This document shows positions 5,834 through 31,766 of a stretch of 64,000 nt of DNA, in pieces. Each line of letters starts with the position of its first letter. The stretch's first letter is position 1. This DNA comes from Streptomyces nigrescens. Lineage in GTDB: Bacteria; Actinomycetota; Actinomycetes; Streptomycetales; Streptomycetaceae. Where the stretch lies: positions 2,914,001 to 2,978,000 of the forward strand of contig AP026073.1 of NCBI GenBank assembly GCA_024349765.1, in the 5' to 3' direction. Made by a program: the position numbers and the translations under genes. Under the pieces are notes generated by a model. That model did no database searches. It saw only the letters and a list, made by a program, of their open reading frames with translations, and had not been told where the DNA came from.

Positions 5834-7075
5834 TCACCAGCGGGTCGTCAGCTCCACCGTGACGGACTCCAGGGCCGCGGCCGCCGCCTTGTTGACCTCG
5901 GTCGTGGTGCCGGCCCGGAGCATGATCCGGCCGATCCGGCTGAGGTTGTCGTGCGGACCGCCGACGTCGTCGCCGGGCAGCTTCGACAGGCCGGTGGCGA
6001 CGATGTGCTCGCCGCGGGGGAGGGCACTGACCCAGCGCAGCGTGCCGGCTTCCGGAGCGGTGAGGAAACGGATCGCGGCGGCCGCCGCCCGGCGCGGTGT
6101 CACGTCGGGGCGTTCGCCCAGCGCGGCCTGGAGGCAGGCGCGGGCCATGTCGATGCCGAGCGCCTCCTTGACCAGCCTCATGATGTGGTCGCCCGGGGGC
6201 CGGGCACCGACCTCGAGGACGTACGGGCGGCCCCGGGGGTCGACCTTCACCTCGGTGTGCGCGACACCGTGGCGCAGGCCCAGGGCCGTGCACGCCGCGG
6301 TGGCCGCCGCGAGCACGGCCGCCCGTATGTCGCGGGGGAGTTCGGCCGGCACCGTGTGGCCCAGTTCGGCGCGGTGGGCCCCGTCGGTGGTGAACTTCTC
6401 GGTGACCGCGAGGTGGTGGAGCTCGCCGCCGGCCAGGACCGTCTCGACGCTGAACTCCTCGCCGGGCACGTACTCCTGCGCCAGCAGCGTGCGGTCCAGG
6501 GCGATGCCGTGCGAGGGCTTGTGCGTCTCGGAGCGGGCCAGGCGGGCGGCGGCGGGGAGTTCGGCGGCCGAGCGGACGACGGACACCCCGATCGAGGCGG
6601 CGTTCTCGGCCGGTTTGACGACGAGCGGGAAGTCCAGCCCGGCGTCCGCGATCCGGCGGGCCAGGGCGGCGGCGTCCGGCGCCGCGACCGTGCGCGGGGC
6701 CGGTACGCCGCGGGCCGCGAACGCCTCGGCCATCATCCGCTTGTTGCGGCCGGCGTCGGCGAGTTCGGGCCGGTGGCCGGGCAGCCCCAGGTCCGCGGCG
6801 AGCCGGGTGGCGAGCGGGGTGAGGAACTCCCAGCAGGGAACGACGGCGGCCACGTCGTGGGCGCGGCAGAACGCGGCCAGTTCGGCGCGGGCGGCCGCGG
6901 GGTCGGCGAAGTCGGTGAAGACCGGCGCGGTGATCCGCGCCTTCAGATCGGGGCGGTAGCGCGCGTACACGTCCTCATGGGTGGCGGCGTAGGCCGCGAG
7001 GCCCAGCCCGGCGGCCGCGGTCAGCAGGTCCTCGCCCGCGGCGACGTCGGGCTCGATCAGCAGGACTTTCTTCAC
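5834..7075 (-). CDS. ATP-grasp ligase (biosynthetic cluster, left arm)
   Basis: A 413-residue ATP-grasp enzyme of the carboxylate-amine/thiol ligase type, such as L-amino-acid ligases and BtrJ-like carrier loaders. Such enzymes activate a carboxylate as acyl phosphate and pass it to an amine or thiol. Visible parts are an N-terminal Rossmann-like domain (KKVLLIEPD), the ATP-grasp lysine region DFPLVVKPAENAASIGVSVV (about 160-180), the hinge AQEYVPGEEFSVE, and the Mg/ATP-binding end THTEVKVD..YVLEVGARPPGDH (about 290-315), followed by a C-terminal LAL-like lid. The GTG at 7075 has GGAAGGAACC upstream. It is the last gene of the minus-strand arm (adenylation enzyme, MFS, ATP-grasp) that diverges from the main cluster at 10.0 kb. 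It could make a peptide bond or load a carrier protein. Confidence 0.88.
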   Translation of the reverse strand: MKKVLLIEPDVAAGEDLLTAAAGLGLAAYAATHEDVYARYRPDLKARITAPVFTDFADPAAARAELAAFCRAHDVAAVVPCWEFLTPLATRLAADLGLPGHRPELADAGRNKRMMAEAFAARGVPAPRTVAAPDAAALARRIADAGLDFPLVVKPAENAASIGVSVVRSAAELPAAARLARSETHKPSHGIALDRTLLAQEYVPGEEFSVETVLAGGELHHLAVTEKFTTDGAHRAELGHTVPAELPRDIRAAVLAAATAACTALGLRHGVAHTEVKVDPRGRPYVLEVGARPPGDHIMRLVKEALGIDMARACLQAALGERPDVTPRRAAAAAIRFLTAPEAGTLRWVSALPRGEHIVATGLSKLPGDDVGGPHDNLSRIGRIMLRAGTTTEVNKAAAAALESVTVELTTRW

Positions 7076-7090
7076 GGTGCGGTTCCTTCC

Positions 7091-7111
7091 GGTGCGCGGT
7101 GCGCGGTGCGC
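7091..7111. repeat. Three tandem copies of a heptamer (GGTGCGC)
   Basis: Three exact GGTGCGC units plus a partial fourth lie in the 54-bp gap between the MFS stop (7130) and the ATP-grasp start (7075), just upstream of the ATP-grasp ribosome binding site. Probably a small slippage product. Confidence 0.7.
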
Positions 7112-7129
7112 GGTGCGGCGGTTCGCCGG

Positions 7130-8365
7130 TCAGCCGGTGGCGCGGCGGCGCAGCGCCGGTGCCAGGGCCAGCTGGCCGGCCGCGGCGAGCAGGCACAGCG
7201 CGGCGCAGGTCAGCCAGAGGACGGGGGAGCCGAGGGTGAGCAGACGGGTGCCGGCGACGGGGGCGATCAGGAAGCCGGTGCCCCAGGCCATCCCGATCAG
7301 GCCGTTGTAGCGGCCGCGCAGCGGGGCCGGCGCCAGGTCGGCGACGACCGCCGCGGTGACTGCGAAGACCAGGATCTCGCCGACCGTGGAGACCGTGACC
7401 GCCAGCGCGTACCCGACGGTGGCAAAGGCGGTGGCGGCCACCGCGTTGCCACCGGCCGCCAGGGCGAACCCGGTGGCCAGCACCCGGCTCTTGTCGTGGT
7501 CGGCCAGCCGGTGGCCGATCAGCGGCTGCAGGGCGATCACGACGATGCCGTTGACGCCCATCACCAGGCCGTACGCGCCGCTGGACAGGCCGGTGCCGCG
7601 CATCGCCAGCGGCAGGGTGGCGAACGCCTGCTGGAAGACGACCGCGTAGACCACGATGATCCCGGCGAAGGCGAGCATGGGGCGGTCGGCGAGGACGGTG
7701 CGGTAGCTGCCGGCGGTGCGGTCCCGGACGGCCGGGCGGGTCTCCGGGACGGCCAGCCACACCAGCACCCCGAAGAACGTACAGGCGCCCGCGTCGATCC
7801 AGAAGATCAACTGGTAGCCGTGCGAGGCGAGCCGGCCGCCGAGCACCATGGCGACCGAGAAGCCGAGGTTGATCGCCCAGAGCAGCAGCCCGAAGGCGCG
7901 GGTGCGGTCGGCGGCGGGCACCGCGTCGGCGACCAGGGCCTGGGCGGCGGGGCGGAAGAGGTCGATGGTGACGCCGAGCGTGAAGCAGGCGAGGATCAGC
8001 ACGGTCAGGCCGTGGGCGTGGCCGAGGACGAGCAGGGTCGCGCCGTTCGCCAGCATCCCGCCGGTCAGCGCCACCCGGCGGTCGAACCGGTCGGCGAGGA
8101 AGCCGCCCAGCGGCTGGGAGACGACCGAGCCGACGCCGACGACGGCGAGGACCAGGCCGGTGTCGGCCAGCGAGACGCCGCGGGCACCGGTCAGATAGAG
8201 GGCGAGGAAGGGATTGACCATCGAGCCCAGGCGGTTGACCAGCGAACCGCCCCACAGCACCCAGAACGCGCGGGGCAGTCCGCCCGCCCGCACCCGGACG
8301 TAACGGCGCAGCCGGCCGGGTGCGGGCGCACCGGGCGGCGGTGCGGGGGCGTCGGTGCTGCGCAC
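7130..8365 (-). CDS. MFS transporter, probable product exporter
   Basis: A 411-residue major facilitator protein with about 12 hydrophobic segments. The loop 2-3 signature is present as GGFLADRFDRRVALTGGMLA (about residue 75-95), and the second-half counterpart as LIGHRLADHDKSR. In a biosynthetic cluster such a pump usually exports the product and gives self-resistance. I chose the GTG at 8365, which has GGAGAG 6 nt upstream; an alternative GTG at 8392 overlaps the stop of the upstream adenylation gene (GTGA) and would add nine residues. The gene lies between the adenylation enzyme and the ATP-grasp ligase, all on the minus strand, so probably one operon. Confidence 0.88.
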   Translation of the reverse strand: MRSTDAPAPPPGAPAPGRLRRYVRVRAGGLPRAFWVLWGGSLVNRLGSMVNPFLALYLTGARGVSLADTGLVLAVVGVGSVVSQPLGGFLADRFDRRVALTGGMLANGATLLVLGHAHGLTVLILACFTLGVTIDLFRPAAQALVADAVPAADRTRAFGLLLWAINLGFSVAMVLGGRLASHGYQLIFWIDAGACTFFGVLVWLAVPETRPAVRDRTAGSYRTVLADRPMLAFAGIIVVYAVVFQQAFATLPLAMRGTGLSSGAYGLVMGVNGIVVIALQPLIGHRLADHDKSRVLATGFALAAGGNAVAATAFATVGYALAVTVSTVGEILVFAVTAAVVADLAPAPLRGRYNGLIGMAWGTGFLIAPVAGTRLLTLGSPVLWLTCAALCLLAAAGQLALAPALRRRATG

Positions 8366-8388
8366 GGCTCTCTCCTGCGGGTGGTCGG

Positions 8389-10020
8389 TCACTGCGGGCC
8401 GCCGCCGGGCACGGCCGGTGCCACGGCCCGGGCGGCGGCGTCGGCCAGGGCCGCGCGGTCGACCTTGCCGTTCGCCGTGACGGGCAGCGCGTCCAGCAGC
8501 TGGATCTGCTGCGGGACCATGTACGGCGGCAGGGCCGCGGCGCAGAACTCCCGTAGCGCGCCGGCGTCCGGCGGGGTCCGGCCGGCACCGGGGACCACGA
8601 AGGCGGCGAGTTCGAGGCCGCCGCCGTCGGGGAGGGGAAGGGCCAGCGCGGTCGCGGCGGCGGCGCCGGGGAACTCCGTCAACCGCCGCTCCACCTCGGC
8701 GAGTTCGACGCGGTTGCCGTTGATCTGCACCTGGGAGTCGGTCCGGCCGCGGAAGAAGAACGCGCCGTCCTCGCCCCGGACGGCCAGGTCGCCGGTGCGC
8801 AGCACCACCTGGCCGGACTGCGGACACAGCGGGTCGGGGACCAGCGCGGCGCGGGTGGCCTCCGGGTCGTCCCAGTACCCGGAGAACAGCGCGGGGCTGC
8901 GCAGATGGATCTCGCCGGGCACGCCGGGCCGGTCGACGACCGTCCCCGACGCGTCGACGAGCAGCATCTCCGCACCGGGGTGGGCGACGCCGATGGACAA
9001 CCGCTCCACGTCGTCCGGCAGGGGGCGCGGGACGTCCTCGAAGGAGGCGGCCATCGACTCGGTGGCGCCGTAGCAGTTGATGATGCGGGCCGCGGGCAGC
9101 AGTTCCTGGAGCCGCCGCAGTTCGGGCAGCGGGAACTCCTCGCCGCAGAACAGCACCGAACGCAGCCGGTCGAGGGCGGCCAGCCGCTCCGGCTCGTACC
9201 GCAGCGGCTGCCGCCAGATCGACGGGACGCCGTTGACCTGGGTGGCACCGGTCTCCCGCAGCACCCGCAGCAGATGGCGGGGCCAGCGCACCAGTTGCGG
9301 CGGGACCGGGACGACGGCGGCGCCGCTGCCCAGCGCCAGGCCGATGTTGAGCAGCGAGAAGTCGAACTGCAGCGGTGAGGTGCTGGCGACGCGGTCCTCG
9401 GGCGCGGCGATCCGGTGCGCCAGCATGCCCCGGTAGAAGGCGGTCACCGCCCGGTGGCTCATCACCACGCCCTTGGGCCGGCCCGTGGTACCGGAGGTGA
9501 AGATGATGTACGCGGGGTCGGTGACGCAGGGCACCCGGCGGCGGGGCCGGTGGGGTCCGGGGGCGCGGTCGACGGTCAGTCCGTCCGGGCCGAACCGGGC
9601 GGTGCCGGTCGTCGGCGGGAGGCCGGTCCGGGTGCCGTCCGCGGCCTGGAGGTGGAGCGCGGGCCGGGCGGTGGCGAGGATCGACTCCAGTCGCTGCCGC
9701 GGGGTTTCGGGGCTCACCGGGACGAAGGTGAGGCCGGCCCGGGAGCAGGCGAGGAGCGCGGCGACGGCCGGTGCGGTGGTGTCGGACTCCAGGACGACCC
9801 GTGAGCCGGTCTCGATGCCCAGCGCGCCGAGGCCGTCCGCGTACGCGTCCACCAGGGCGCCGAGTTCGGCGTAGGTGGTCACGGTGGTCGCACCGGGCCG
9901 GGGGGACTCGATCACGGCGGGGGCGTCGGGGGTGTGCCGGGCGGCGGCGAGCAGGAAGTCGTGGAGGAACTCCCCGGCCGGACCGGCGGGGGCGGACGGC
10001 GGCTGACTCACGGTGCTCAC
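8389..10020 (-). CDS. Free-standing adenylation enzyme A1 (DltA-like)
   Basis: A 543-residue ANL-superfamily enzyme that activates a carboxylic or amino acid as the adenylate and passes it to a carrier thiol. Core motifs are A3 FTSGTTGRPKG (about 174-184), A4 FDFS, A5 INCYGATES, A7 LRTGDLAV, A8 GRTDSQVQINGNRVELAEVE and A10 NGKVDR with its catalytic lysine (about 517). FDFS supplies the Asp that binds an alpha-amino group, so an amino acid is the likely substrate. The VLFCGEEFP stretch resembles D-alanine:carrier ligases. My reading by eye of the pocket residues (D-F-L-N-L-C-C-A-A) matches no specificity I know. There is no carrier domain in cis; partners are the carrier protein at 19927 and/or the one fused at 18712. 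GTG at 10020 opens the divergent operon. Confidence 0.9.
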   Translation of the reverse strand: MSTVSQPPSAPAGPAGEFLHDFLLAAARHTPDAPAVIESPRPGATTVTTYAELGALVDAYADGLGALGIETGSRVVLESDTTAPAVAALLACSRAGLTFVPVSPETPRQRLESILATARPALHLQAADGTRTGLPPTTGTARFGPDGLTVDRAPGPHRPRRRVPCVTDPAYIIFTSGTTGRPKGVVMSHRAVTAFYRGMLAHRIAAPEDRVASTSPLQFDFSLLNIGLALGSGAAVVPVPPQLVRWPRHLLRVLRETGATQVNGVPSIWRQPLRYEPERLAALDRLRSVLFCGEEFPLPELRRLQELLPAARIINCYGATESMAASFEDVPRPLPDDVERLSIGVAHPGAEMLLVDASGTVVDRPGVPGEIHLRSPALFSGYWDDPEATRAALVPDPLCPQSGQVVLRTGDLAVRGEDGAFFFRGRTDSQVQINGNRVELAEVERRLTEFPGAAAATALALPLPDGGGLELAAFVVPGAGRTPPDAGALREFCAAALPPYMVPQQIQLLDALPVTANGKVDRAALADAAARAVAPAVPGGGPQ

Positions 10021-10160
10021 GGTGCGAAAGACCCCTCGTGGTGTACGGGAACGGTGAATCCGGGGCAGCCGGGGCGGATATGACGATCCGTCGGCTGCTG
10101 ACGGGCGTGCGCGGCGGCGCCCCGGGAAGCGCCCGGCCGGCGGTCGAAGCGCCCTCCATG

Positions 10161-10177
10161 CTTCCGTATAGCGGAAG
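10161..10177. promoter_or_regulatory. 17-bp palindromic operator candidate
   Basis: CTTCCGTATAGCGGAAG has perfect 6-bp arms (CTTCCG/CGGAAG) around TATAG. It is the only strong palindrome near the minus-strand arm start (10020) and suits a dimeric repressor such as an IclR- or GntR-type protein. No such regulator is encoded in the cluster. Confidence 0.5.
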
Positions 10178-10229
10178 TTGAATTTCGAAGAGTGGTGATC
10201 AGGTTCTCATGTGCGCGACGGGGTTGGCG

Positions 10230-10245
10230 TGTGAGGTGGGTCACG
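10230..10245. promoter_or_regulatory. Crp/cAMP-like site (TGTGA-N6-TCACG)
   Basis: TGTGAGGTGGGTCACG matches the classical TGTGA-N6-TCACA Crp half-site pair at 9 of 10 fixed positions, and Streptomyces Crp recognises a related GTG-N6-GNCAC-type motif. It lies 109 nt upstream of the condensation gene. Confidence 0.45.
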
Positions 10246-10353
10246 TTTGATGGTCGCCCGGTCGACCTGGACAGACTTCAACAGCTTGTGGCAGCGTCGG
10301 TCGTGCACGGAATTCAAATTTCGCATGATGGAAGTGCAGCAATGGGGGAACGT

Positions 10354-11613
10354 ATGACCGAGGCCGGACCGCTCTCGCTGGGCCAGCTCTCGGTGTGGCA
10401 TGACATCCGCGACCTGCCGGCCCACCGGCGGCACGAGCCCAACAACGCCGCCGCCTGGCCGCTGCCGCGCGGCACCGACGCCGCACGGGTCCGCACCGCG
10501 CTCGGCGCCGTCGCCGCCCGGCACCCCTCGCTGCGCACCCGCTACGACCTCCAGGACGCCGACGCGCCACGGCAGTTGACGCCCGACCGCGACACCGACG
10601 ACACCCTGCCGGCCGTACCCGACGACGGCACCGCGCCCGACCGCCGCGCCGCCGAACTCGCCCACCAGCCCTTCGACCTCGGCCGGCAGCACGGCTGGCG
10701 GGCCCGACTGCTGACCCGCGACGGCACCCTCACCCACCTGCTGTTCGTCAAACACCACATCACCGCCGACGCCTGGGCCCAGGAACTCCTGCACCGGGAA
10801 TTCCGGCAGGCGCTCACCGACCCCGACGGCCTCGGCCCCACCCCGCCCGGCCCCGCCGACCTCGCCGCCGAACAGTACGGCCCCGCCGGACTCCGCCGGC
10901 AGGCCGCCGCGCTCGACCACTGGACCCAGCTGCTCTCCCACGCACCGCCGGCCGCCCTGCCCCACACCGGCGCGGCGGGCGGCACCGTCCAGGCCACCCT
11001 GCACTCCGCGGCCGCCCGCCCGGCCGCCCACACCCTCGCCGAACGCGCCCGGGTCTCCGTCTCCAGCGTCGTCCTCGCCGCCTACGTCCGCAGCGTCGCC
11101 CGCCGATGCGGCACCGACACCCTGCTCGTCCAACTGATGAGCGCCAACCGCTTCGCCGGCCGCTGGAAGACCGTGGTCACCTCGATGAACCAGTGGGTCC
11201 CCGCCCTCGTCGAACAGGCCCGCACCGACGACCTGGTCACCCTCGCGGACGCGGTGCACTGGAGCGGCCTGACCGCCTTCCGGCACGGCATGCACGACGT
11301 CACCGCGGTCGCCGCCCTGCGCGCCCGGACGCCCGGTGCCGCCGAACCGGCCTGCGCCTTCAACTACGTGGCCGTACCCGGCGGTTCGCCACTGGACGCC
11401 CCACCGCAACAGGGCCCGAGGGACGGCCGCCCACCCACCCTCACCTGGGAGGAACCCTTCACCACCATCGGGCCGCGATGTTACGCCCGCGCCCTGGAGA
11501 CCGACGCCGGGCTCTCGATCCGGCTCACCGCGAAGGACCTCGGCCGCGAACAGTGCGCCGAGCTGCTCCGGGACCTGCACGACGGCCTGCTCACCGCCGC
11601 CGGGCGGCCCTGA
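10354..11613 (+). CDS. Free-standing condensation-domain protein
   Basis: A 419-residue protein of the NRPS condensation/CoA-dependent acyltransferase superfamily. The catalytic motif HHITADAW (HHxxxDxW) is at residues 134-141, with His135 as the expected catalytic base. The N-terminal PLSLGQLSVWHDI matches core motif C1, and ANRFAG..MNQWVP in the second half matches the DFGN/bridge region loosely. At about 420 residues it is a whole stand-alone C domain without A or T domains. Such proteins join a carrier-bound acyl group to a free amine or a second carrier. ATG 10354 follows GGGGGA; ATG 10342 is an alternative. It is the first gene of the right arm. The 202-bp spacer to the next gene (11614-11815) is C-rich and holds no gene. 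Confidence 0.85.
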   Translation: MTEAGPLSLGQLSVWHDIRDLPAHRRHEPNNAAAWPLPRGTDAARVRTALGAVAARHPSLRTRYDLQDADAPRQLTPDRDTDDTLPAVPDDGTAPDRRAAELAHQPFDLGRQHGWRARLLTRDGTLTHLLFVKHHITADAWAQELLHREFRQALTDPDGLGPTPPGPADLAAEQYGPAGLRRQAAALDHWTQLLSHAPPAALPHTGAAGGTVQATLHSAAARPAAHTLAERARVSVSSVVLAAYVRSVARRCGTDTLLVQLMSANRFAGRWKTVVTSMNQWVPALVEQARTDDLVTLADAVHWSGLTAFRHGMHDVTAVAALRARTPGAAEPACAFNYVAVPGGSPLDAPPQQGPRDGRPPTLTWEEPFTTIGPRCYARALETDAGLSIRLTAKDLGREQCAELLRDLHDGLLTAAGRP

Positions 11614-11815
11614 GGCGGAACCGCCCACCCACACCGGCACCGGCCACGGCCACGCGCCGCGGCCCGGCGGATCCCGCCCGCCGCACCGGCCGGCCCCGTG
11701 CCCCCCCCGCCGGACCACACCGCGCGCCGCCGATGCCGCGCGGCCGCACCCCCGGCCGGCCCCCGTCGCCCGCCCCACCCCCGCCGTGCTCGTTCCTGCC
11801 CCCAGGAGGCCGCCC

Positions 11816-14284
11816 GTGCCCGAACACGTCCTGGTCCTGCACCGCTGGACCGATCGCTACGCCGACTACGCCGCCTACTTCGACCACTCCGTCCACCGCG
11901 TCAGCTACCTCACCACCGAACGGGCCGCCCGCCACCTCCCCGTCGAACAGGCTGCCGCGGTACGGCTCGTGGACAGCACCGAGAACGTCAAGGAGGTCCG
12001 CGCCGCCCTCGACACCCTGGTCGAGCGGCTCGGCCCGCCCACCCGGATCGTCGCCCTCCAGGAGACCGACCTCGACCTCGCCGCCGACCTCCGCGACGCC
12101 TTCGGCCTGCCCGGACAGCGCGCCGAGGACCTGCTGCCGCTGCGCGACAAACTGCTGATGGCCCAGCGGCTCGAAGCCGCCGGCCTCCCCGTACCGCCCA
12201 CCGCCGCGGCCACCGGACCCGACGCGGTGGCCGCCTTCGCCGCCCGGCACGGCTGGCCGGTCCTGCTCAAACCGCGGCGCGGCACCGCCAGCGCCGGCAT
12301 CACCCGTCTCGACTCCCCGGACGACCTCGGGCGCCACGCCTTCCCGCCGGAGACCGGCATGCTCGTCCAGCAGTGGCGGCCCGACCAGGTCCTGCACGTC
12401 GACGGCGTGCACACCGGCGACCGCCTCGGTCCCTGGCGGGCCTCCCGCTACCTCCACACCTGCCTGGAGTTCACCACCGGCGCGGCACTCGGCTCGGTGG
12501 AGATCGACGACCCCGCGCTCCTCGCCCGCATCGGAGGGCTCACCGCCGCCGCCACCGAGGCCCTGTTCACCGGCCCGTCCGTCTTCCACCTCGAACTCTT
12601 CGAGAGCGAGCGCGGCGACCTGACCGTCCTGGAGATCGGCGCCCGCCCCGGCGGAGCCGAAGTCCCCTTCGTCTGGCGCGAGGTGCACGGCATCGACCTG
12701 ATGGCCGCGGCCTTCGCCCACCAGGCCGGCACCCCCGACCCGACCGCCGGCGCGCACCCCGCACCGGACGAGGTGGCCGGCTGGCTGCTGGTCCCGCCCT
12801 CCGTCCCCGCACCCTGCCGGGTACGCGATATCACCGGATATCCTGCCGACGACGGACCGTACGCCCAAGTCCTCCCGGAACGGGGCACGTTGATGCGGGG
12901 CGGTGGATACGAACACGCCGGGGCACGGTTCCGCTTCCGCGGCCGCAGCAGCGCGGAAGTGACCGCCGCCCTCCACCGCACCCTGCGCACCGCCCGGCTC
13001 GACTGCACCCCCGTCGACCCCGCGGCACCCGCCCGGCTCGTCCTCGTCGGCTGCGGCAACCCGCCCTACCGCGCCTACGCCCTGGACACCGTCGCCGGCC
13101 GGGTGACCACCGCCCTCGTCCAGTCCACCGAGCCGGACTGGCAACGCCGGTACCTCGCCGACCGGTTCCGTACCGCGGACACCTCCGACGCCACCGCGAC
13201 CACCCGCGCGATCGCCGACCTGCTCGCCGGCCACCCCGGCCCCGGGGCCGTCCTCACCTGGGACGAGACCCTGCTGGAGAGCACCGCCGAGGCCGCCCGC
13301 CGGCTGGGCCTGCCGCACATGAGCCCCGAGGCCGCCCGCCGCTGCCGCGACAAGCTCGCCACCCGCCGGCTGCTCGCCGCAGCCGGAGTGCCCTCCGCAC
13401 GCTTCCACGAGGTCCACACCCCCGACGAGGCGGTCGCCGCCTCCGAGGAACTCGGCCGGCCGGTCGTCGTCAAACCCCGGGCCCTGGCCGGCAGCATCGG
13501 CGTCACCCTCGCCGGCGACCCCGAACAGGTCCGGCACGCCTTCGACCAGGCCCGCACCGCCGCCTTCCCCGGCATCCCCGCGACCGCCGGCGCGATCGTC
13601 GAGGAATACCTGACCGGACCCGAGATCAGCGTGGACTGCGCGGTCGCCGACGGCACCGTCCGGATCGTCAACGTGGCCCGCAAACGCCTCGGCTTCGCCC
13701 CGTACTTCGAGGAGACCGGGCACCTCGTCGCGCCCTGGCGGCACGAGCCGTGGGCCGACGAGGTGCGCTCCGTCGTCACCGACGCGCACACCGCCCTCGG
13801 CATCCGCACCGGCCTCACCCACACCGAACTCCGCCTCACCCCCACCGGACCCCGCGTCGTCGAGGTCAACGGCCGGCTCGGCGGCGACTTCATCCCGCTC
13901 CTCGGCACCCTCGCCACCGGCGTCGACCCGGTCGCGGCCGCCGCCGATCTCGCCCTCGGCCGGACCCCGGAACTCACCCCGCACCACGACCGCTGCGCCG
14001 AGGTGAGCTTCGTCTACCCCGAGCACGACGGCACCGTCCGCTCCCTCGACCTCACCACCGCCGCGACCGTCCCCGGCATCGTCCGGGCCGTGCCGCTCGC
14101 CGCGCCCGGCACCACGCTGCGGCTGCCGCCCCGCGGCATCGTGCCGCGCCTCGCCGCCCTCATCGCCGTCGGCGACACCCCCGAGGAGTGCGCCACCGCG
14201 CTGACCGGTGCCCGGCACGCCGTACGCCACTCCCTGACCCCGCTGCTCCGACCGTCCACCCCGACCAAGGACAACCGCCCATGA
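11816..14284 (+). CDS. Tandem double ATP-grasp protein
   Basis: An 822-residue protein made of two consecutive ATP-grasp units. Unit 1 (about 1-400) has RDKLLMAQRLEAAG, WPVLLKPRRGTASAGITRL, and LEIGARPGGAEVPF. Unit 2 (about 405-822) has CRDKLATRRLLAAAG, RPVVVKPRALAGSIGVTL, VEEYLTGPEISVDCAV, and THTELRL..VVEVNGRLGGD. Both keep the lysine and the acidic/Asn Mg-ligand regions, so both may be active, which would allow two successive carboxylate activations, for example assembling a tripeptide or ligating and loading. The GTG at 11816 has AGGAGG 6 nt upstream, a near-perfect ribosome binding site. It overlaps the carbamoyltransferase start by 4 nt (ATGA). Family knowledge supports ligase activity; the substrates are unknown. 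Confidence 0.87.
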   Translation: MPEHVLVLHRWTDRYADYAAYFDHSVHRVSYLTTERAARHLPVEQAAAVRLVDSTENVKEVRAALDTLVERLGPPTRIVALQETDLDLAADLRDAFGLPGQRAEDLLPLRDKLLMAQRLEAAGLPVPPTAAATGPDAVAAFAARHGWPVLLKPRRGTASAGITRLDSPDDLGRHAFPPETGMLVQQWRPDQVLHVDGVHTGDRLGPWRASRYLHTCLEFTTGAALGSVEIDDPALLARIGGLTAAATEALFTGPSVFHLELFESERGDLTVLEIGARPGGAEVPFVWREVHGIDLMAAAFAHQAGTPDPTAGAHPAPDEVAGWLLVPPSVPAPCRVRDITGYPADDGPYAQVLPERGTLMRGGGYEHAGARFRFRGRSSAEVTAALHRTLRTARLDCTPVDPAAPARLVLVGCGNPPYRAYALDTVAGRVTTALVQSTEPDWQRRYLADRFRTADTSDATATTRAIADLLAGHPGPGAVLTWDETLLESTAEAARRLGLPHMSPEAARRCRDKLATRRLLAAAGVPSARFHEVHTPDEAVAASEELGRPVVVKPRALAGSIGVTLAGDPEQVRHAFDQARTAAFPGIPATAGAIVEEYLTGPEISVDCAVADGTVRIVNVARKRLGFAPYFEETGHLVAPWRHEPWADEVRSVVTDAHTALGIRTGLTHTELRLTPTGPRVVEVNGRLGGDFIPLLGTLATGVDPVAAAADLALGRTPELTPHHDRCAEVSFVYPEHDGTVRSLDLTTAATVPGIVRAVPLAAPGTTLRLPPRGIVPRLAALIAVGDTPEECATALTGARHAVRHSLTPLLRPSTPTKDNRP

Positions 14285-18715: not shown

Positions 18716-19905
18716 GCCCCACCACCCCGCACGGAAGGACACCGGCCATGGCCGTCACAGGGGAACCGGAGCAGTTCGCGTTCGGTTCCGTCCACAGCGG
18801 TCTGCTCGACTGCGTCCAGGTCAACCTGGCGGTCCTCGCGGACCACCACCACGGGCCCGGAGCACACCTCCGGCTCGGCGCCCCCCTGGGCTTTCGCTCC
18901 TGGGAGGGCCCCGGCGGACTGCCCACCGTCGATCCGCCGCTCACCGAGCAACTCCGGCTGGCGCCGGGCCTCCTGGGGCTCCGCGTCGTGCGGCGGGAGC
19001 GGATGAGCCGCACCGGCATGTTCGCGGCGATCCGCCGGGCCGGCGCCGCCCGCTACGTCGTCGCCGACTCCTTCCACCTGCCCTGGCTGCCGTACCACGG
19101 GCAGGCACACATGGAACACAGCTTCCTGCTCGCCGCCGGGCCCGGCGGCTGGCACGTCACCGACGCCTACCGCAGCGAGACCTCCTGGGGCACCGCCGCC
19201 CCCGGCACCTGGGTGCTCACCGAGGACGCGCTGGCCGGCATCGAGTCCGCCGAGGTCGTCGAGGTGGCACCGGACACCGCCCGCCCGGCCGCCGGACCGC
19301 CCCCGCTGGTGTCCGTCGACGAGAGCGCGGTCGCCGCCTACCTCGACGCGTACGACGTCTGTCCGGACCGCGTCCGGGCGATCGGTCAACTGACCGTCGA
19401 GACCTGGCTGCTGGCTCGCTCCCGCACCCTGCACGCCACCTACCGCGCGCTCTTCACCGACCACGCCGACGAGGAGCGGCGGGCGGCCGAGGCCGGGCAC
19501 CTGCGGGCCTGGGACAAGGTCGTCGAGCAGACCTACCTCGCCCACCGCCGGCTGTCCCGCGGCCGCGCCGAGCCCCCGGGCGTCGTGGACCGGCTGCGGC
19601 AGGTGCTCACCGCCGACATCGCCGTCTTCGGCACCCCGCCCGGCAACCCGGCCCCCGCGGCCGCCCCACCCGCCGACGACGCGCTCCGCGACCGGGTGGC
19701 CGCCGTGGCCGCGGAGGTGCTCGGCGTGGAGGTGGCCGGCCTCCTCGACGGCGCCCCCTTCGACTCCTTCCCCTCCTTCAGCTCCTTCCGGCTGATCGAG
19801 ATCATCGAGCGGCTGGAGACCGCACTGGGCCGGGAACTCGACGCCGACGCTCTCGTACCCGAAAACCTCCGCCGGGTCGACGACCTGTGCCGCATCGCCC
19901 GCTGA
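18712..19905 (+). CDS. BtrH-like (C39-peptidase-fold) domain fused to a carrier domain
   Basis: A 397-residue two-part protein. Residues about 25-160 resemble the N-terminal domain of butirosin protein BtrH, which moves an acyl group from a carrier protein to an amine. A papain/C39-like triad can be placed at Cys34 (LLDCVQVN), His136 (HMEHSFLL) and Asp151 (HVTDAY), and the ADSFHLPWLPYH strand is typical of the family. A helical region (about 205-300) and a Pro/Ala linker follow. The last 75 residues look like an acyl/peptidyl carrier: SSFRLIEIIERLE aligns with DSMQAIELLFAVE of the free carrier next door, making Ser358 the phosphopantetheine site, with Ser replacing the usual Asp before it. 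The fusion suggests the domain acts on its own carrier. The start at 18712 overlaps the previous stop; ATG 18748 behind GGAAGGA is the alternative. Confidence 0.7.
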   Translation: MSPTTPHGRTPAMAVTGEPEQFAFGSVHSGLLDCVQVNLAVLADHHHGPGAHLRLGAPLGFRSWEGPGGLPTVDPPLTEQLRLAPGLLGLRVVRRERMSRTGMFAAIRRAGAARYVVADSFHLPWLPYHGQAHMEHSFLLAAGPGGWHVTDAYRSETSWGTAAPGTWVLTEDALAGIESAEVVEVAPDTARPAAGPPPLVSVDESAVAAYLDAYDVCPDRVRAIGQLTVETWLLARSRTLHATYRALFTDHADEERRAAEAGHLRAWDKVVEQTYLAHRRLSRGRAEPPGVVDRLRQVLTADIAVFGTPPGNPAPAAAPPADDALRDRVAAVAAEVLGVEVAGLLDGAPFDSFPSFSSFRLIEIIERLETALGRELDADALVPENLRRVDDLCRIAR

Positions 19906-19926
19906 CCGCACCACGAAAGAGACCCC

Positions 19927-20205
19927 ATGGACGCCCGCTTCACCGCCCTGCTGCGGCCCTTCCTCAAGCCCGCCGGCCCCGGCGAGATCACCCTCACCCC
20001 CGACACCGACCTGCGCAAACTCGGCGTCGACTCCATGCAGGCCATCGAGCTGCTGTTCGCCGTCGAGGACACCTTCGGCATCTCGCTGCCGGACGAGGAG
20101 CTCAACGACACCACCTTCGCCACCGCCGGCAGCCTCTGGAACGTGATCGCCGCACAGCTGCCGGCGGGCGCCGGCGACGGCACGGCCGGCCGGGAGACCG
20201 CATGA
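19927..20205 (+). CDS. Acyl/peptidyl carrier protein
   Basis: A 92-residue carrier protein. Ser36 in LGVDSMQAIELL is the 4'-phosphopantetheine attachment site, with the canonical Asp before it, and the remaining helices (FAVEDTFGISLPDEEL) are typical. It would carry the amino acid loaded by one of the adenylation enzymes or ATP-grasp ligases and present it to the two dehydrogenases encoded directly downstream. GAAAGAGA lies at the right distance before the ATG. The stop overlaps the first dehydrogenase start (ATGA). This is the only free carrier in the window. Confidence 0.92.
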   Translation: MDARFTALLRPFLKPAGPGEITLTPDTDLRKLGVDSMQAIELLFAVEDTFGISLPDEELNDTTFATAGSLWNVIAAQLPAGAGDGTAGRETA

Positions 20206-21383
20206 CCACCGAGCCCGCCCCCCGGCCCCCGCTCGACCTGACCGACCGGCTCGCCGCCGTCACCGAGGCCACCGAGGAACACCTGGCGCACACCGACCGC
20301 GCCGCGGAATTCCCGGTGGCCGCGCTGGACGCGCTGCGCCGCACCGCCCTGCTCGGCCTGCTGGTCCCCGTCGCACACGGCGGACTCGGCGGCACCGCAC
20401 GGGACCTGGTGGCCGCCGCCCAGACCCTCGGGCGCAGCGACATGTCCGTCGGCATGATCTTCGCGATGCACTGCCAGCAGGCGGCGGCCCTGGTCCACTA
20501 CGGGAGCGAGCGGCTGCGCAAGGAGGTGCTGCCGCGGATCGCGGCGGGGGAGTGCTACCTCGCCTCCGTCACCACGGAGGCCGGCAAGGGCGGCCACCTG
20601 CTCAGCGCACAGGCGCAACTTGCCGACGAGGGCGGCGAGTTGGCGGTGGAGCGGTTCGCGCCCATCGTCACCGGCGGCACCCACGCCGACGGCTTCCTGA
20701 TCACCATGCGCAGCCCCGGGGCCGACGCCACCGCCCACGAGGTGACGCTGGTCTACGCCCACCGCGACCAGCTCGACCTCACCGCCTCCGGCGACTGGCA
20801 GCCCATGGGCATGCGCGCCGGCCACAGCGCCGCGCTCACCCTGACCGGACGCGTCCCCGGCCACCAAGTCGTCGGCGAAGTGGGGGAGTTCCACCGGATC
20901 GCGGCCACGGTCTTCGGGCCGCTGGCCCACCTCGGCTGGTCGGCGGTCTGGCTCGGCACCGCCGCGGGGGCGCTCTCCCGCGTGCTGCGCCTGCTGCGCA
21001 GCCCCGCCGGCCGGGCCCGCTTCGACCTCACCTCCGAGCTCCTCCTCACCCGGATCGCCCGGTCCCGGCAGCGCCTCGACACCGTGCACGCCCTGCTGCA
21101 ACAGGCCCTGCGCACCGTGGAGTCCGGCGCCGACCTGTCCGCACCGGCCCGCCAGCTCCAGCTCAACGCGCTGAAGATCACCGCCTCCGAGGAGTGCCTG
21201 GCGGCCGTCGACGACCTGATCGCCGCGCTCGGACTGCGCCACGGCTACCTCAAGGACTCACCCACCCGGCTCGAACAGGCCCTGCGCGACCTGCGGTCCG
21301 CGCCGCTCAACTACAGCAACGACCGGCTGCACCTCGCCGACGGCCGGCTGGCGCTGCGCGACCAGGGGGTGAGCTTTGCCTGA
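20202..21383 (+). CDS. Acyl-CoA dehydrogenase-like flavoprotein 1
   Basis: A 393-residue protein of the acyl-CoA dehydrogenase family: helical N-terminus (FPVAALDALRRTALLGLLVP, VAHGGLGGTARDLVAAAQTL), central beta domain (YLASVTTEAGKGG, ADGFLITMR) and C-terminal helices ending LEQALRDLRSAPLNYSNDRL. It binds FAD and would remove two hydrogens from C-alpha and C-beta of a thioester. Next to a carrier gene such enzymes often oxidise a carrier-bound aminoacyl group, as in prolyl-carrier dehydrogenation, so a carrier substrate is more likely than a CoA ester. It shares few exact motifs with the second dehydrogenase. The start overlaps the carrier stop (ATGA). Confidence 0.85.
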   Translation: MTTEPAPRPPLDLTDRLAAVTEATEEHLAHTDRAAEFPVAALDALRRTALLGLLVPVAHGGLGGTARDLVAAAQTLGRSDMSVGMIFAMHCQQAAALVHYGSERLRKEVLPRIAAGECYLASVTTEAGKGGHLLSAQAQLADEGGELAVERFAPIVTGGTHADGFLITMRSPGADATAHEVTLVYAHRDQLDLTASGDWQPMGMRAGHSAALTLTGRVPGHQVVGEVGEFHRIAATVFGPLAHLGWSAVWLGTAAGALSRVLRLLRSPAGRARFDLTSELLLTRIARSRQRLDTVHALLQQALRTVESGADLSAPARQLQLNALKITASEECLAAVDDLIAALGLRHGYLKDSPTRLEQALRDLRSAPLNYSNDRLHLADGRLALRDQGVSFA

Positions 21384-22482
21384 CGCCCGCTACGCCCCGC
21401 TCGACGCACTGCCCCGCACCGCACCCGGCGCACAGGTCTGGGCCGCACTCGGCGGCGCCGGTCTGACCGCCGGCGCCTACCGCGACCGGCGGCCCGGCAC
21501 CGGCATCGACCCGGCCGGCCTCGCCGATCTGCTCACCGCCGTCGACGCCCGCTTCTCCGTCGCCGCCACCCTGTCGGTCAGTGTCCAGCTGGCCACCGCG
21601 CTGCCCCTGCTCACCACCGGCCGGGCGCCGGTGGCCCGGCAGGCCCTGGACGGTGCGCTCGCCGGGCGGGCCACCCTCGCCCTCGCCGCCACCGACGTCA
21701 CCGCCGGCACCGACCTCACCGCCCTCCGCACGGAACTGCGGATCGAGGACGACGCCCTCGACGTGACCGGCGAGAAGAACTGGATCGCCAACACCACCAC
21801 CGCCGCCCACTTCCTCGTCCTCGCCCGGCACCGCCCCGGACGGCACTTCACCCACTTCACCTGGGTCCTGGTGCCGGCCGACGCACCGGGCGTCACCGTG
21901 CGTCCCGCCGACTCCGCCCTGTTCGCCGCCTCCGGCGCCGGCCACGTCACCTTCGACGGGGTACGGCTCGGCCGGGACCACGTGCTCGGCCGCGTCGGCC
22001 TCGGACTGCCGCTCTTCGCCCGCCACATCGGCACCGAACGGCTGGCCGGCGCCCAGTGGGGCGTGGCGCTGTGCCGCCGGGTGCTGGCCGACACCCACCG
22101 CCGCCTCGCCGGGCGCCCGCACGGGGACGGCGCCCTGTGGGACCGTGACGCGGTCCGGCAGCGGTTCGCGGCCGGCCTGCTCCGCGTACGCGCACTCCAC
22201 GCCCTCACCGTCGAGTTGGCCGACCAGGTGGCGCTGCGGCACGACGCCACGGCGGCCGCCACCCTCAAGGCGGCCGCCGGCGCCACCGTCCACCACGTCC
22301 TCGCCGACTGCGCCCAGCTGTGGGGCGCGGCCGGCTTCACCACCGGAGGGATCCAGGAACTCCGCGCCCAGGCCGCGCTGTTCGGCATCGGCGGCGGCGC
22401 CGACGAGGTGGTCCTCGGCACCCTCGCGGACGCCGCCGAGGACGTGCTGGCCGCCCTCGAACGGCCGGGCACCCTGCCGTGA
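21376..22482 (+). CDS. Acyl-CoA dehydrogenase-like flavoprotein 2
   Basis: A 368-residue acyl-CoA dehydrogenase family protein, encoded immediately after the first. GEKNWIANTTTAAHFLVLAR (about 134-153) is the usual GxKxWITN-type strand, FDGVRLGRDHVLG the next beta element, and QLWGAAGFTTGGIQELRAQ..GIGGGADEV the C-terminal FAD-contacting helices. The N-terminal helical domain is short. The TTG start at 21376 overlaps the previous stop by 8 nt and has GGGGGTGA upstream. Two adjacent, dissimilar dehydrogenases could form a heteromer or act in sequence on a carrier-bound substrate. Confidence 0.83.
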   Translation: MPDARYAPLDALPRTAPGAQVWAALGGAGLTAGAYRDRRPGTGIDPAGLADLLTAVDARFSVAATLSVSVQLATALPLLTTGRAPVARQALDGALAGRATLALAATDVTAGTDLTALRTELRIEDDALDVTGEKNWIANTTTAAHFLVLARHRPGRHFTHFTWVLVPADAPGVTVRPADSALFAASGAGHVTFDGVRLGRDHVLGRVGLGLPLFARHIGTERLAGAQWGVALCRRVLADTHRRLAGRPHGDGALWDRDAVRQRFAAGLLRVRALHALTVELADQVALRHDATAAATLKAAAGATVHHVLADCAQLWGAAGFTTGGIQELRAQAALFGIGGGADEVVLGTLADAAEDVLAALERPGTLP

Positions 22483-23165
22483 CGGCACCGATCGAGGTGG
22501 CCCGCGGGGTCTGGGTGGCCACCACGACCGCGGACCGCACCGCCCCCAGCACCCACCGGGACGACCGGCGCCGGGCGGCCGCCCTGCCCGAATGGCGGGC
22601 CCGCGAATTCCTCGCCGGCCGCGGGCTGTTGCGGCAGCTGCTGGCCGCCGTACGGCCCGGCCCGGCCGGGGCGGAGATCGTCCCCGACCGGCGGGGCAAG
22701 CCGCATCTGCGCGGGCACCCGGACCTCGGCATCAGCGTGTCCCACAGCCCGGGCGCGCTCGCCGCCGGGGTGGCGCCGGGGCGCGCCGTCGGCGTGGACG
22801 TCCAGTGCCCGGACCCCGCCGTCAGCGCCTCCTTCGCCCGGCGGCTGCTCGGAGCGCACGCCGGGCGGCTCACCGCACTGCCCCCGGCCGCGGCCGCCGA
22901 GGAGGTCGCCTGGGTGTGGACCGCCCAGGAAGCCTGCGTCAAGGCCGGTGGACTGGGCCTCGCCGGGCGGCCCTGGACCATCGACGTCCCGCCCGGCGCC
23001 CGCTCGGGCCGCTGGCAGGGCTACCGCTGGCTGAGCCTGCGCGACCACTCCAGCACCCCGCTGAGCTGCGCATTCGCCATGACCGCAGGCACGCGGGGCG
23101 GGCCCGCTGGTACGCCCGGCACCCCTGCCGCGCACCACCCCATCCCTTGGAAAGGCGAACGGTGA
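22479..23165 (+). CDS. 4'-phosphopantetheinyl transferase (Sfp type)
   Basis: A 228-residue enzyme that transfers phosphopantetheine from CoA to carrier serines. VPDRRGKPHL and ISVSHSPGALAAGV are the first motif, GVDVQ the Mg-binding motif (usually GIDIE, here with Gln for Glu), and VWTAQEACVKAGG the third (usually W..KEA, here QEA). These substitutions occur in actinobacterial members but should be kept in mind. It would activate the carrier at 19927 and the carrier domain at 18712. The GTG at 22479 overlaps the previous stop (GTGA). A dedicated transferase supports this locus being a self-contained carrier-based pathway. Confidence 0.88.
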   Translation: MTAPIEVARGVWVATTTADRTAPSTHRDDRRRAAALPEWRAREFLAGRGLLRQLLAAVRPGPAGAEIVPDRRGKPHLRGHPDLGISVSHSPGALAAGVAPGRAVGVDVQCPDPAVSASFARRLLGAHAGRLTALPPAAAAEEVAWVWTAQEACVKAGGLGLAGRPWTIDVPPGARSGRWQGYRWLSLRDHSSTPLSCAFAMTAGTRGGPAGTPGTPAAHHPIPWKGER

Positions 23166-24727
23166 GCATCCCCGCCGCACGGCACACCCTGTACGACTGG
23201 TTCGCGGCCACGGCCGCCGCCCACCCGGACCGGCCCGCGCTGGAGACCGGCGGCAGCACGCTGACCTACGCCCGGCTCGCCGCCCGCGCCGACGCCCTCG
23301 CGGTCGCGCTGCTCGACCGCCTGGACGGAACCCCGCCCCGCCGGGTGGGCCTGCTGGCCGGCCGCACCGCCGTCGCCTACGCCGGATACCTCGCCGTCCT
23401 GCGCCTCGGCGCCACGGTCGTCCCGCTCGGCCCCGCCTTCCCGGCCGAGCGCAACGCCCGGATCGTCCGCGCCGCCCGGCTCGACGCCGTACTCTCCGAC
23501 GGGACCGCCGCCTCGCCCACCCCGCCCGGCGTGCCCCTGGTCACCCGCACCGACCCCGAACTGCCGCACCTCCCCGCCGCACCGCTCCCCGCCCTGCCCG
23601 CCGCCCTCCCTGAGGACCTCGCCTACCTCCTCTTCACCTCCGGCTCCACCGGCGTCCCCAAGGGCGTCCCCATCCAGCACCGCAACGTCTGCGCCTACCT
23701 CACGCACGCCGTCCCGCGCGCCGCCGCCGGCCCCGGCGCCCGCTGCGCACAGACCTTCGACCTCACCTTCGACCCGTCCGTGCACGACATGTTCACCACC
23801 TGGGGGAGCGGCGCCACCCTCGTCGTCCCGTCCCGCGACGACCTGCTCGCCCCGGTGCGCTTCGTCAACCGGCACGCCCTGACCCACTGGAACTCCGTAC
23901 CGTCGGTGATCTCCCTCGCCCGGCGGTTCCGCGCGCTGAAGCCGGACAGCATGCCGACGCTGCGCCACAGCATGTTCTGCGGTGAGCCGCTGACCCTCCA
24001 GCAGGCCGCGGCCTGGCACCGCGCCGCCCCGCACAGCCGGCTGGAGAACGCCTACGGCCCCACCGAGCTGACCGTGACCTGCACCGCCTACCGCCTGCCC
24101 CCCGACCCCGCCCACTGGCCGACCCCGGCCAACGGCACCGTCCCCATCGGAGCCCCCTACCCGGGACTCCAACTCCTCGACCACGACGGCGAGTTGTGCG
24201 TCCGCGGCGCACAGCGCTTCCCCGGCTACCTCGACCCGGCCGACAACACCGGCCGCTTCCTGGCACCCGACGGCTCCCCGTACGACCCGGCCACACCGCT
24301 GACCGACGACCACTGGTACCGCACCGGCGACCGCGTCACCGCGCTGGACGCGTCCGCCGCCCCGGCCGCCGGCGACGGCAGCCGGCCGCTGGTCCATCTC
24401 GGCCGCGGCGACCAGCAGGTCCAGGTGCACGGCTACCGCGTCGAACTCGGCGAGGTCGAGGCCGCGTTGCGCGCCCTGCCGGGCGTCCGGGACGCCGCCG
24501 TGCTGCCCCGGAGCACCCCCGGCGGCGTGGAACTCACCGCCGCGTACACCGGCACCCCGGGCACCACCGCCGACGGCCTCCGCGCGGCCCTGCGCGACCG
24601 GCTCCCCGGCTACATGGTCCCGGCCACCCTCACCGCCCTCCACGCCCTGCCGCTCAACGCCAACGGCAAGACCGACCGCGCCGCGCTCGACGCGCTGCTG
24701 CCGGGCGCGCCGGACCGCGCCCCTTAG
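23162..24727 (+). CDS. Free-standing adenylation enzyme A2 (DltA-like)
   Basis: A 521-residue ANL adenylating enzyme, the last gene of the right arm. Motifs: A3 LLFTSGSTGVPKG (156-168), A4 FDLTFDPSVHDMF, A5 ENAYGPTEL (about 295-303), A7 YRTGDRV, A8 GRGDQQVQVHGYRVELGEVE and A10 NANGKTDR. FDPS provides the amino-group Asp, so an amino acid is likely. SMFCGEPLT is the D-alanine:carrier-ligase-like segment also seen in enzyme A1. Pocket residues read by eye are D-P-H-N-M-C-A-V-T, with the same Asn and Cys as A1 but otherwise different, so the two probably activate different acids. GTG 23162 overlaps the previous stop and has GGAAAGG upstream. It converges with GH65, leaving only 17 bp between the stops. 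Confidence 0.9.
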   Translation: MSIPAARHTLYDWFAATAAAHPDRPALETGGSTLTYARLAARADALAVALLDRLDGTPPRRVGLLAGRTAVAYAGYLAVLRLGATVVPLGPAFPAERNARIVRAARLDAVLSDGTAASPTPPGVPLVTRTDPELPHLPAAPLPALPAALPEDLAYLLFTSGSTGVPKGVPIQHRNVCAYLTHAVPRAAAGPGARCAQTFDLTFDPSVHDMFTTWGSGATLVVPSRDDLLAPVRFVNRHALTHWNSVPSVISLARRFRALKPDSMPTLRHSMFCGEPLTLQQAAAWHRAAPHSRLENAYGPTELTVTCTAYRLPPDPAHWPTPANGTVPIGAPYPGLQLLDHDGELCVRGAQRFPGYLDPADNTGRFLAPDGSPYDPATPLTDDHWYRTGDRVTALDASAAPAAGDGSRPLVHLGRGDQQVQVHGYRVELGEVEAALRALPGVRDAAVLPRSTPGGVELTAAYTGTPGTTADGLRAALRDRLPGYMVPATLTALHALPLNANGKTDRAALDALLPGAPDRAP

Positions 24728-27908: not shown

Positions 27909-28088
27909 CGTGACATCCGTTCGTCGCTGTCCGTCGCCGGTTCTGTCGGGTCCGGCGTCGGTGTCCTTTCCATGGCACCACGCCCGGCAGCCGCGGGCGC
28001 GTTTGGACGTGGCGGGCGCCCGTACGCGGGGTGACGATGGGAGGGCGCGGGCGGGAGCCGGACGACCGTGAGAAGGGCGGTGGCGGCC

Positions 28089-28970: not shown

Positions 28971-29031
28971 CGGCGCGCATCCGGGCGGTCTCCCGGACCG
29001 CCGCTCCTCGGTCCGCGTCTCCTCGGGGCCG

Positions 29032-30378: not shown

Positions 30379-30420
30379 GGCCGGCTCCTTCCACGACCGG
30401 GCACGGTCCGCCACCGCGGC

Positions 30421-30720: not shown

Positions 30721-30752
30721 GGTTCACCTCCGCTTCGGTGCCCCTGTCGTCA

Positions 30753-31634: not shown

Positions 31635-31766
31635 CGCCTCGCTCCTCTCCTTCGGGGCCGGGCCAGGACCGGTGTGCGTCGCCACACCTCCAGGGTGCGC
31701 GGCGCGGTCCGGTCCGGCACCGGCAGAACGGAAGAGGGCCCGCGCGGCCGGGCCGGGGCGGGCGCC

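Follow-up and report, generated by a model that had tools for sequence, protein, structure and literature searches.

Macrolactam starter genes without a polyketide synthase: a Streptomyces nigrescens gene cluster that may make a carbamoylated beta-enamide

Background

Among the known systems closest to the locus treated here is the 3-aminobutyrate starter cassette of the macrolactams (incednine IdnL1/L3/L4/L7, vicenistatin VinK/L/M/N/O; PMC11284099), for which a route from glutamate by way of beta-glutamate to 3-aminobutyrate has been published (PMC11284099; PMC9230918). Here and below, published systems are described from the accessible parts of the cited papers and statements about them extend to those parts only. 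A further likeness is to bolagladin, where bolO/C/N/Q are proposed to provide a beta-aminoacyl thioester on an acyl carrier protein (ACP), its N-acylation and its desaturation by an acyl-CoA dehydrogenase (ACAD); deletion of the ACAD gene bolQ gave dihydro compounds and N-acyl-beta-alanyl-ACP was proposed as the substrate (PMC7756342). We describe a gene cluster of Streptomyces nigrescens, lying in a 64,000-nucleotide stretch of contig AP026073.1 (the whole stretch is called the window), which resembles both systems and which we consider, with a probability of roughly 0.57, to encode a pathway free of polyketide synthase (PKS) leading from 3-aminobutyrate through an enamide to a small carbamoylated peptide-like compound.

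The enamidonins were named in 2020 as the only dehydro-beta-alanine products besides bolagladin (PMC7756342), to which a later review adds the ribosomal peptide kintamdin (PMC10880069). Enamidonin, autucedine and olenamidonin are Streptomyces peptides with dehydro-beta-alanine but are cyclic lipopeptides (PMC11204786), while the residues of solanimycin are described as dehydro-alpha-alanine.

Results

Counterparts of a macrolactam starter cassette

Five of the genes (KAM, AT, A1, A2 and ACP; names as in Table 1) have sequence counterparts in the 3-aminobutyrate starter cassette, a relationship not named in an earlier note on this DNA that was made from the letters alone. Identities to the cassette counterparts in loci L178-L187 are 57-78% for KAM, 64-68% for AT, 58-62% for A1, 38-43% for A2 and 35-41% for ACP, and all five counterparts occur together in L180-L183. 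The window cluster has 14 genes, none of them for VinK, VinJ or a modular PKS; in comparison with the macrolactams it has instead two ACADs, a carrier-fused amide synthase, C, LIG1, LIG2, CARB and a phosphopantetheinyl transferase. In L181 the order runs PKS, proline iminopeptidase, KAM, AT, VinK (PF21124, 124.7 bits), ACP, VinM-like adenylation enzyme (A), IdnL1-like A and PKS; L182 is arranged alike, and so is L180 except that it has no peptidase, as judged from position and N-terminal sequence. As far as synteny can tell, the arrangement of KAM, AT and A1 in L180-L182 matches the known starter cassette. In L183, a KAM/AT/A1 locus, a weakly ACAD-like gene (764-2527), scoring 27.1 bits against a cut-off of 33.3, is found 4.7 kb away from a VinM-like gene.

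Among solved adenylation enzymes A1 is closest to IdnL1, CmiS6 and HitB, its best matches being 5JJQ (IdnL1) at 640 bits, 5JJP at 626 and HitB at 622, followed by the two-domain LgrA at 319. It has the Asp-Phe pair and a Leu at the position of IdnL1 L220 (DFSLL); DFSLL or DFALL is found in 18 of 20 A1 sequences, four of the 20 being macrolactam sequences, and DLSLF in the other two. The L220 position has been reported to set the size for the short 3-aminobutyrate (PMC11253843), and A1 is predicted to activate (S)-3-aminobutyrate.

In all 29 KAM sequences compared, four of them from macrolactams, we found the CX3CX2C motif, Arg329 and Lys373, which from its position we take to be the pyridoxal phosphate (PLP)-region lysine of the KamA family. 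Arg329 aligns with Asp293 of the lysine 2,3-aminomutase 2A5H, a residue that presumably contacts the lysine side chain. A lysine-type KamA is not supported in view of this exchange, and we rejected lysine 2,3-aminomutase on Arg329 even though the lysine model outscores the glutamate one; KAM is predicted to be a glutamate 2,3-aminomutase.

The AT relative is the sole PLP enzyme among the eight L181 starter-cassette genes scanned. At 13 further places with AT (51-68% identity) KAM adjoins it in 11 and an IdnL1-like A in five, and a VinM-like A, an ACP and an IdnL1-like A are found together in four; L187, one of the 13, lies near a cassette locus in the same genome. On the synteny with macrolactam starter genes a plain aminotransferase, as first annotated, was rejected, and AT is probably a beta-glutamate decarboxylase.

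A2, the dehydrogenase pair and the amide synthase

With the A2 family profile the highest scores among single domains are those of 8K4R (451 bits), which we take to be VinM, 6AKD (IdnL7; 447) and 8XJZ (443), the next single domain reaching 309; LgrA rows above 8K4R and 6AKD sum two domains, the best single LgrA domain scoring 275 bits. The A2 pocket reads DPHNMCAVT. At the positions of IdnL7 Cys217, Ala285 and Thr318, where three of four macrolactam controls show the expected Cys, Ala and Thr, it has Pro205, Cys273 and Thr306, and A2 was not classed as VinM because two of the three residues differ. It may nonetheless work like VinM and attach a different small amino acid to the beta-amino group.

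ACAD2 has the acyl-ACP dehydrogenase MbtN as its best solved match. The common C-terminal catalytic Glu, at the position where we assume it to lie, was seen in neither ACAD1 nor ACAD2; ACAD2 retains an 'ERLA' stretch.

The protein that had been called a carrier fusion does carry a carrier domain, and its partner, left unnamed until now, has the amide-synthase fold of CtaG, CcbD and AziU3. Its triad of Cys33, His135 and Asp150 (numbered from the codon at 18715) is invariant in 18 of 18 sequences, and the residues C11, H128 and D144 named in the titles of CtaG variant structures in the PDB are, by residue type, its putative counterparts. Pfam BtrH_N (PF14399) gave no match to this protein at E up to 1. 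CcbD and LmbD of the lincosamides, CtaG and AziU3 share the fold and a Cys-His-acid triad, and CcbD likewise uses a carrier-bound acyl donor (PMC12945683); they differ in sequence (9-16% identity), in the third triad residue (Asp here, Glu in CcbD; PMC12945683) and in that the window protein is fused to its carrier.

Proposed pathway

In the pathway that we favour KAM would shift the amino group of L-glutamate to C3 and AT would take off one carboxyl, giving (S)-3-aminobutyrate for A1 to load onto ACP. A2 would then acylate the amino group of 3-aminobutyryl-ACP with a small amino acid in the manner of VinM, and ACAD2, with ACAD1 as partner, would dehydrogenate the N-aminoacyl-3-aminobutyryl-ACP to a 3-aminocrotonyl (beta-enamino) thioester, a step proposed because of its analogy to bolagladin BolQ (PMC7756342). 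The cysteine amide synthase could accept the carrier-bound acyl chain at Cys33 and couple it with an amine. Further residues may be attached by C, LIG2 and LIG1, CARB would carbamoylate a hydroxyl and MFS would export the product. The computation establishes the gene set and its families, the closest relatives of A1 and A2, the fold and invariant triad of the amide synthase, and the synteny and exchange of the supply genes; we infer from these each reaction and the order of the reactions, along with the amino acid that A2 loads, the acceptor used by the amide synthase and the position of the carbamoyl group. The earlier expectation of an uncharacterised cluster lacking a modular megasynthase is supported, and the beta-amino acid, dehydro residue and carbamoyl group foreseen for its product are all likely.

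A number of points weigh against this pathway. KAM misses the cut-off of the NCBIfam glutamate 2,3-aminomutase model TIGR04368 (86.7 of 650 bits) and scores higher on the lysine 2,3-aminomutase model (106.6 of 525.4 bits, also under the cut-off), the macrolactam homologue in L181 likewise staying under the TIGR04368 cut-off at 90.1 bits, and activity of the incednine enzyme IdnL4 was not seen in vitro (PMC11284099). AT was likened to IdnL3 by gene context, two of its 13 further places are without KAM, and proteins related to it are common, occurring in 286 of 388 genomes (E 1e-60) and for the most part sharing 43-50% identity. For A2, the large peptide synthetase 8XJZ scores like the VinM and IdnL7 entries, only one of three VinM-type pocket residues is kept and the macrolactam counterpart protects an amine and makes no enamide. 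The models that ACAD1 fits best are those of ordinary acyl-CoA dehydrogenases (FadE16, 107 bits), no solved structure matches it at E 1e-20, bolagladin has one ACAD gene where the window has two, and two of the 72 ACAD1 loci described below have neither supply system within the stretch compared.

Alternative explanations

If the ACADs oxidised an alpha-amino acid that A2 had placed on the ACP or the carrier domain of BTRH-PCP, in the style of RedW/PigA and VioJ, 3-aminobutyrate would be a second, saturated building block. ACAD2 has its best NCBIfam matches in RedW (75.6 bits) and MbtN (71.9), and A2 accompanies the cassette in both supply classes, both of which would suit such a role; the RedW cut-off of 650 bits is however missed, for which reason a proline-to-pyrrole route was rejected, and the A2 pocket differs from what we take to be the proline code. 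There is a precedent in VioJ (PMC10880069). A2 nevertheless groups with the amide-forming VinM and IdnL7, and the beta-aminoacyl supply is swapped while the ACADs stay, so that we regard oxidation of an alpha-amino acid as unlikely. Still less probable in our judgement is that 3-aminobutyrate is made and coupled while the ACAD pair carries out another flavin reaction such as an oxygenation, leaving no enamide. That the common catalytic Glu was seen in neither protein, that ACAD1, after FadE16 and AcrC (81 bits), matches the SfnB (77.8 bits) and DszC (59 bits) oxidoreductase models and that a flavin reductase family is present in 29 compared loci could all be read in this way, but none of the 14 genes in the window cluster is a flavin reductase gene, and the MbtN match of ACAD2 together with the bolagladin precedent speaks for dehydrogenation.

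A peptide resembling viomycin, butirosin or dapdiamide, with beta-lysine or ureido-dehydroalanine, could be suggested by the families present. The carbamoyltransferase, the ATP-grasp ligases and a BtrH-like fold agree with it, and so do the scores of KAM, though below the respective cut-offs, on the KamA family model TIGR00238 (114 bits) and on that of lysine 2,3-aminomutase (107 bits). Against it stand Arg329 in place of Asp293, the synteny of KAM and AT with macrolactam starter genes and the nature of CARB, which is of NodU/TobZ type, TobZ being its closest solved structure (E 8e-68), and, with Carbam_trans_N/C, not of the VioL type of the tuberactinomycin ureido-dehydroalanine pathway, VioL being as we understand it ornithine-carbamoyltransferase-like. 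The viomycin analogy is not supported and a product of this kind seems very improbable. Resormycin was also considered as the product and was rejected, no resormycin gene cluster having been found in the open literature searched.

Exchangeable supply of the beta-amino acid

Relatives of ACAD1 were sorted by the supply genes beside them, using labels whose thresholds we chose ourselves (A1 at least 50% identity; KAM, AT and ACAD1 at least 38%; families 7 and 8 by single linkage at 38%). Counting the window there are 72 ACAD1 loci, in 39 of which a VinN-like A and a fold-III PLP decarboxylase occur without any of A1, KAM and AT, and in 21 of which A1, KAM and AT occur with neither of those two. 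The rest comprise four loci with A1 only, three with A1 and KAM, one with KAM and AT, one with a lone VinN-like A and one with a lone decarboxylase, along with the two lacking both systems; genes of both supply systems were found in none of the 72. A VinN-like A taken as an example scores 365 bits to 3WVN, and the decarboxylase matches Pfam Orn_Arg_deC. The same exclusion is seen at the 40 loci with a TrpB-like or ProA-like gene (24 with VinN/VinO-like supply, nine with A1/KAM/AT, none with both and seven with neither). On a quick ACAD1 tree (70 rows, those under 300 residues dropped, SH-aLRT support only) the supply switches four times, at least three of these being forced by starred branches. 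Genes that from their sequence we take to be glutamate mutase subunits S (five loci) and E (four loci) all accompany VinN/VinO-like genes. Vicenistatin has a glutamate mutase (PMC11284099), and the VinN/VinO-like supply of bolagladin resembles that of the sister clusters (PMC7756342).

The simplest reading of the gene content is that a shared cassette takes a beta-aminoacyl thioester of whatever source. A more tentative proposal, which we think possible but would not yet rely on, is an undescribed actinobacterial beta-enamide module of ACP, two ACADs, carrier-fused cysteine amide synthase, phosphopantetheinyl transferase and amide-forming A enzyme, with interchangeable suppliers derived from aspartate, 3-methylaspartate or glutamate and with very different back ends, the window version of which would give a carbamoylated 3-aminocrotonyl residue without PKS or modular nonribosomal peptide synthetase (NRPS).

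Relatives and conserved gene order

A search with the carrier-fusion protein in 394 genomes of the family (E 1e-3) gave matches in 43, many over short pieces or the carrier part alone, and around 23 of those places (20 kb each, one 15 kb) five, L039-L043, turned out to preserve the right-arm set and its order at 59-88% identity. Scanning named genomes with a profile gave 80 loci, 81 with the window; loci on cut contigs were retained, making absences lower bounds. The ACAD1 family is found in 70 of the 81, CARB in 16 and C together with LIG2 in 14 including the window, the others being Streptomyces sp. NRRL S-337, S. rhizoryzae, S. humicola, S. lydicus, NBC_01306, SID10853, S. albospinus, yr375, NRRL F-4489, WAC05374, S. 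seoulensis, S. galbus and S. inhibens. When these 13 are compared directly, each has the eleven right-arm genes in unchanged order and a divergent A1, at 55-96% identity, and the set therefore exceeds what chance would give; in L067 the contig ends inside PPT with the order otherwise kept. In the count of gene families A1 was added by hand for 13 loci; in 12 of them the direct comparison shows an A1 truncated at the edge of the locus, while L116 rests on the gene families. Of the named loci that of Streptomyces sp. NRRL S-337 comes closest, with 85-96% identity across the proteins of the cluster. Most other loci retain BTRH, ACP, ACAD1 and ACAD2, often with PPT and A2, among differing genes.

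Twelve of the 13 named loci that have both C and LIG2, as well as the cut-off contig L073, carry a mycothiol-isomerase-like (MDMPI) gene between AT and BTRH; it is in neither the window cluster nor L062. The gene occurs in 15 loci (L063-L068, L070-L074, L076, L128, L085 and L096), all with 3-aminobutyrate supply genes, and its own-genome relatives are 35-48% identical and located outside the cluster. Among the sister clusters of L075-L137 a second BtrH_N-like protein, F6 (43 loci; 26.5 of 29.7 bits on BtrH_N), and the TrpB-like and ProA-like genes recur. In the 21-kb locus L069 of Streptomyces sp. CB02959 the 14 genes are reduced to MFS, BTRH and one quarter of C, with UDG adjoining MFS, and the locus looks like a decayed copy of the cluster. 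A sister cluster otherwise actinobacterial is found on a 34.8-kb contig of 70% GC in a record titled Burkholderia multivorans WS-FJ9 (L081), reflecting either contamination or transfer.

Cluster extent and remaining genes

Coding bias together with Pfam and NCBIfam scans marks out an intact cluster at 5834-24727 in two divergent arms (Table 1), in a host genome of 9.3 Mb on two contigs. A composition profile gave no lead, and neither did a survey of C domains across that genome beyond placing the window in it. The gene families named earlier are present there as long frames with coding bias, but the 13 genes counted earlier, ten of them on the right arm, are one too few: there are 14, eleven on the right and three on the left. 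All 14 frames are open and no TTA codons are listed in the scan of called genes. Of the eight overlaps earlier claimed on the right arm the gene calls give seven among ten junctions, and eight are reached if the amide-synthase gene begins at the ATG at 18712. We set the left border at LIG1 because LIG1, MFS and A1 recur in the flanks of orthologues (MFS and A1 in five of five, LIG1 in four, one of partial length) and the outer genes do not (PPOX one of five, UDG two of five). On the other side, the gene following A2 belongs to a family that recurs, among the compared loci, only in the near-identical L062.

Table 1 Features of the cluster, in window coordinates
Feature	Position	Strand	Description
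LIG1	5834..7075	-	413 aa ATP-grasp ligase with LAL_C2; Pfam ATP-grasp_4 73 bits, LAL_C2 47 bits
MFS	7130..8392	-	Efflux-type transporter; Pfam MFS_1 157 bits
A1	8389..10020	-	Free-standing adenylation enzyme of IdnL1 type, predicted (S)-3-aminobutyrate
Divergent intergenic region between arms	10021..10353	.	From gene calls and sequence
C	10354..11613	+	Free-standing condensation domain; Pfam Condensation 69 bits; HHxxxDA motif
LIG2	11816..14284	+	Two ATP-grasp units in one protein, the second with LAL_C2
CARB	14281..16065	+	NodU/TobZ-type carbamoyltransferase; Pfam Carbam_trans_N/C
KAM	16065..17447	+	KamA-family radical SAM protein, predicted glutamate 2,3-aminomutase (IdnL4 role)
AT	17444..18715	+	Fold-type I PLP enzyme, predicted beta-glutamate beta-decarboxylase (IdnL3 role); Pfam Aminotran_1_2 143 bits
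BTRH-PCP	18712..19905	+	Papain-like cysteine amide-synthase fold fused to carrier domain; start 18712 or 18748
ACP	19927..20205	+	Free-standing carrier protein; Pfam PP-binding 43 bits
ACAD1	20202..21383	+	Acyl-CoA-dehydrogenase-like protein
ACAD2	21376..22482	+	Acyl-CoA-dehydrogenase-like; nearest models RedW and MbtN, with acyl substrates bound to a carrier
PPT	22479..23165	+	4'-phosphopantetheinyl transferase; Pfam ACPS 26 bits (cut-off 25)
A2	23162..24727	+	Free-standing adenylation enzyme, VinM/IdnL7 group, predicted beta-amino-group acylation on ACP

Conservation of the HHxxxDA motif of C was examined over 14 sequences. In LIG2 the first ATP-grasp unit is weak (motif EIGARPGG), the second unit reads EVNGRLGG and the second half of the protein matches the L-amino-acid ligase BL00235 (3VOT) at 87 bits. 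Within CARB a 15-bp tandem array of 5.3 copies (15372-15450) encodes a stretch rich in Gly, Ala, Val and Pro at a poorly conserved site. To the right of the cluster, 27147-31685 holds a frame with a HAD domain and genes for a nicotinate phosphoribosyltransferase and for universal stress proteins.

Discussion

Full-text searches of the open literature returned no paper recognisable as describing this gene set. Bolagladin differs from the proposed pathway in that a fatty acyl rather than an aminoacyl group is placed on the nitrogen, in its derivation from aspartate and in its modular NRPS, and its description mentions no amide synthase of the window kind (PMC7756342). The Pbo cluster of Pseudomonas syringae pv. 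phaseolicola, compared by gene families only, also brings together a KamA-like protein, an ACAD, a stand-alone A, a carrier, an ATP-grasp ligase and an MFS transporter; it differs in having ketosynthase, dioxygenase and reductase-type genes, and no NodU-type carbamoyltransferase or BtrH-like gene is seen in the part of the description covered (PMC8473136). In the part of the macrolactam genome-mining study covered no PKS-free case is found, and no report of a 3-aminocrotonyl (dehydro-3-aminobutyrate) residue was found in the literature searched, including the accessible part of the review PMC10880069. While each part has a known counterpart, the combination, with macrolactam starter genes in the absence of a PKS, is new to the open literature searched.

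Beta-enamino residues are rare in natural peptides. If the proposed pathway is true, it would provide a natural 3-aminocrotonyl residue that is carbamoylated and made without PKS or modular NRPS, and the carrier-fused amide synthase would be a candidate for engineering. A widespread cassette with swappable suppliers would represent a concrete route to beta-enamino residues, and reading it in this way would unite some 70 loci under one chemistry.

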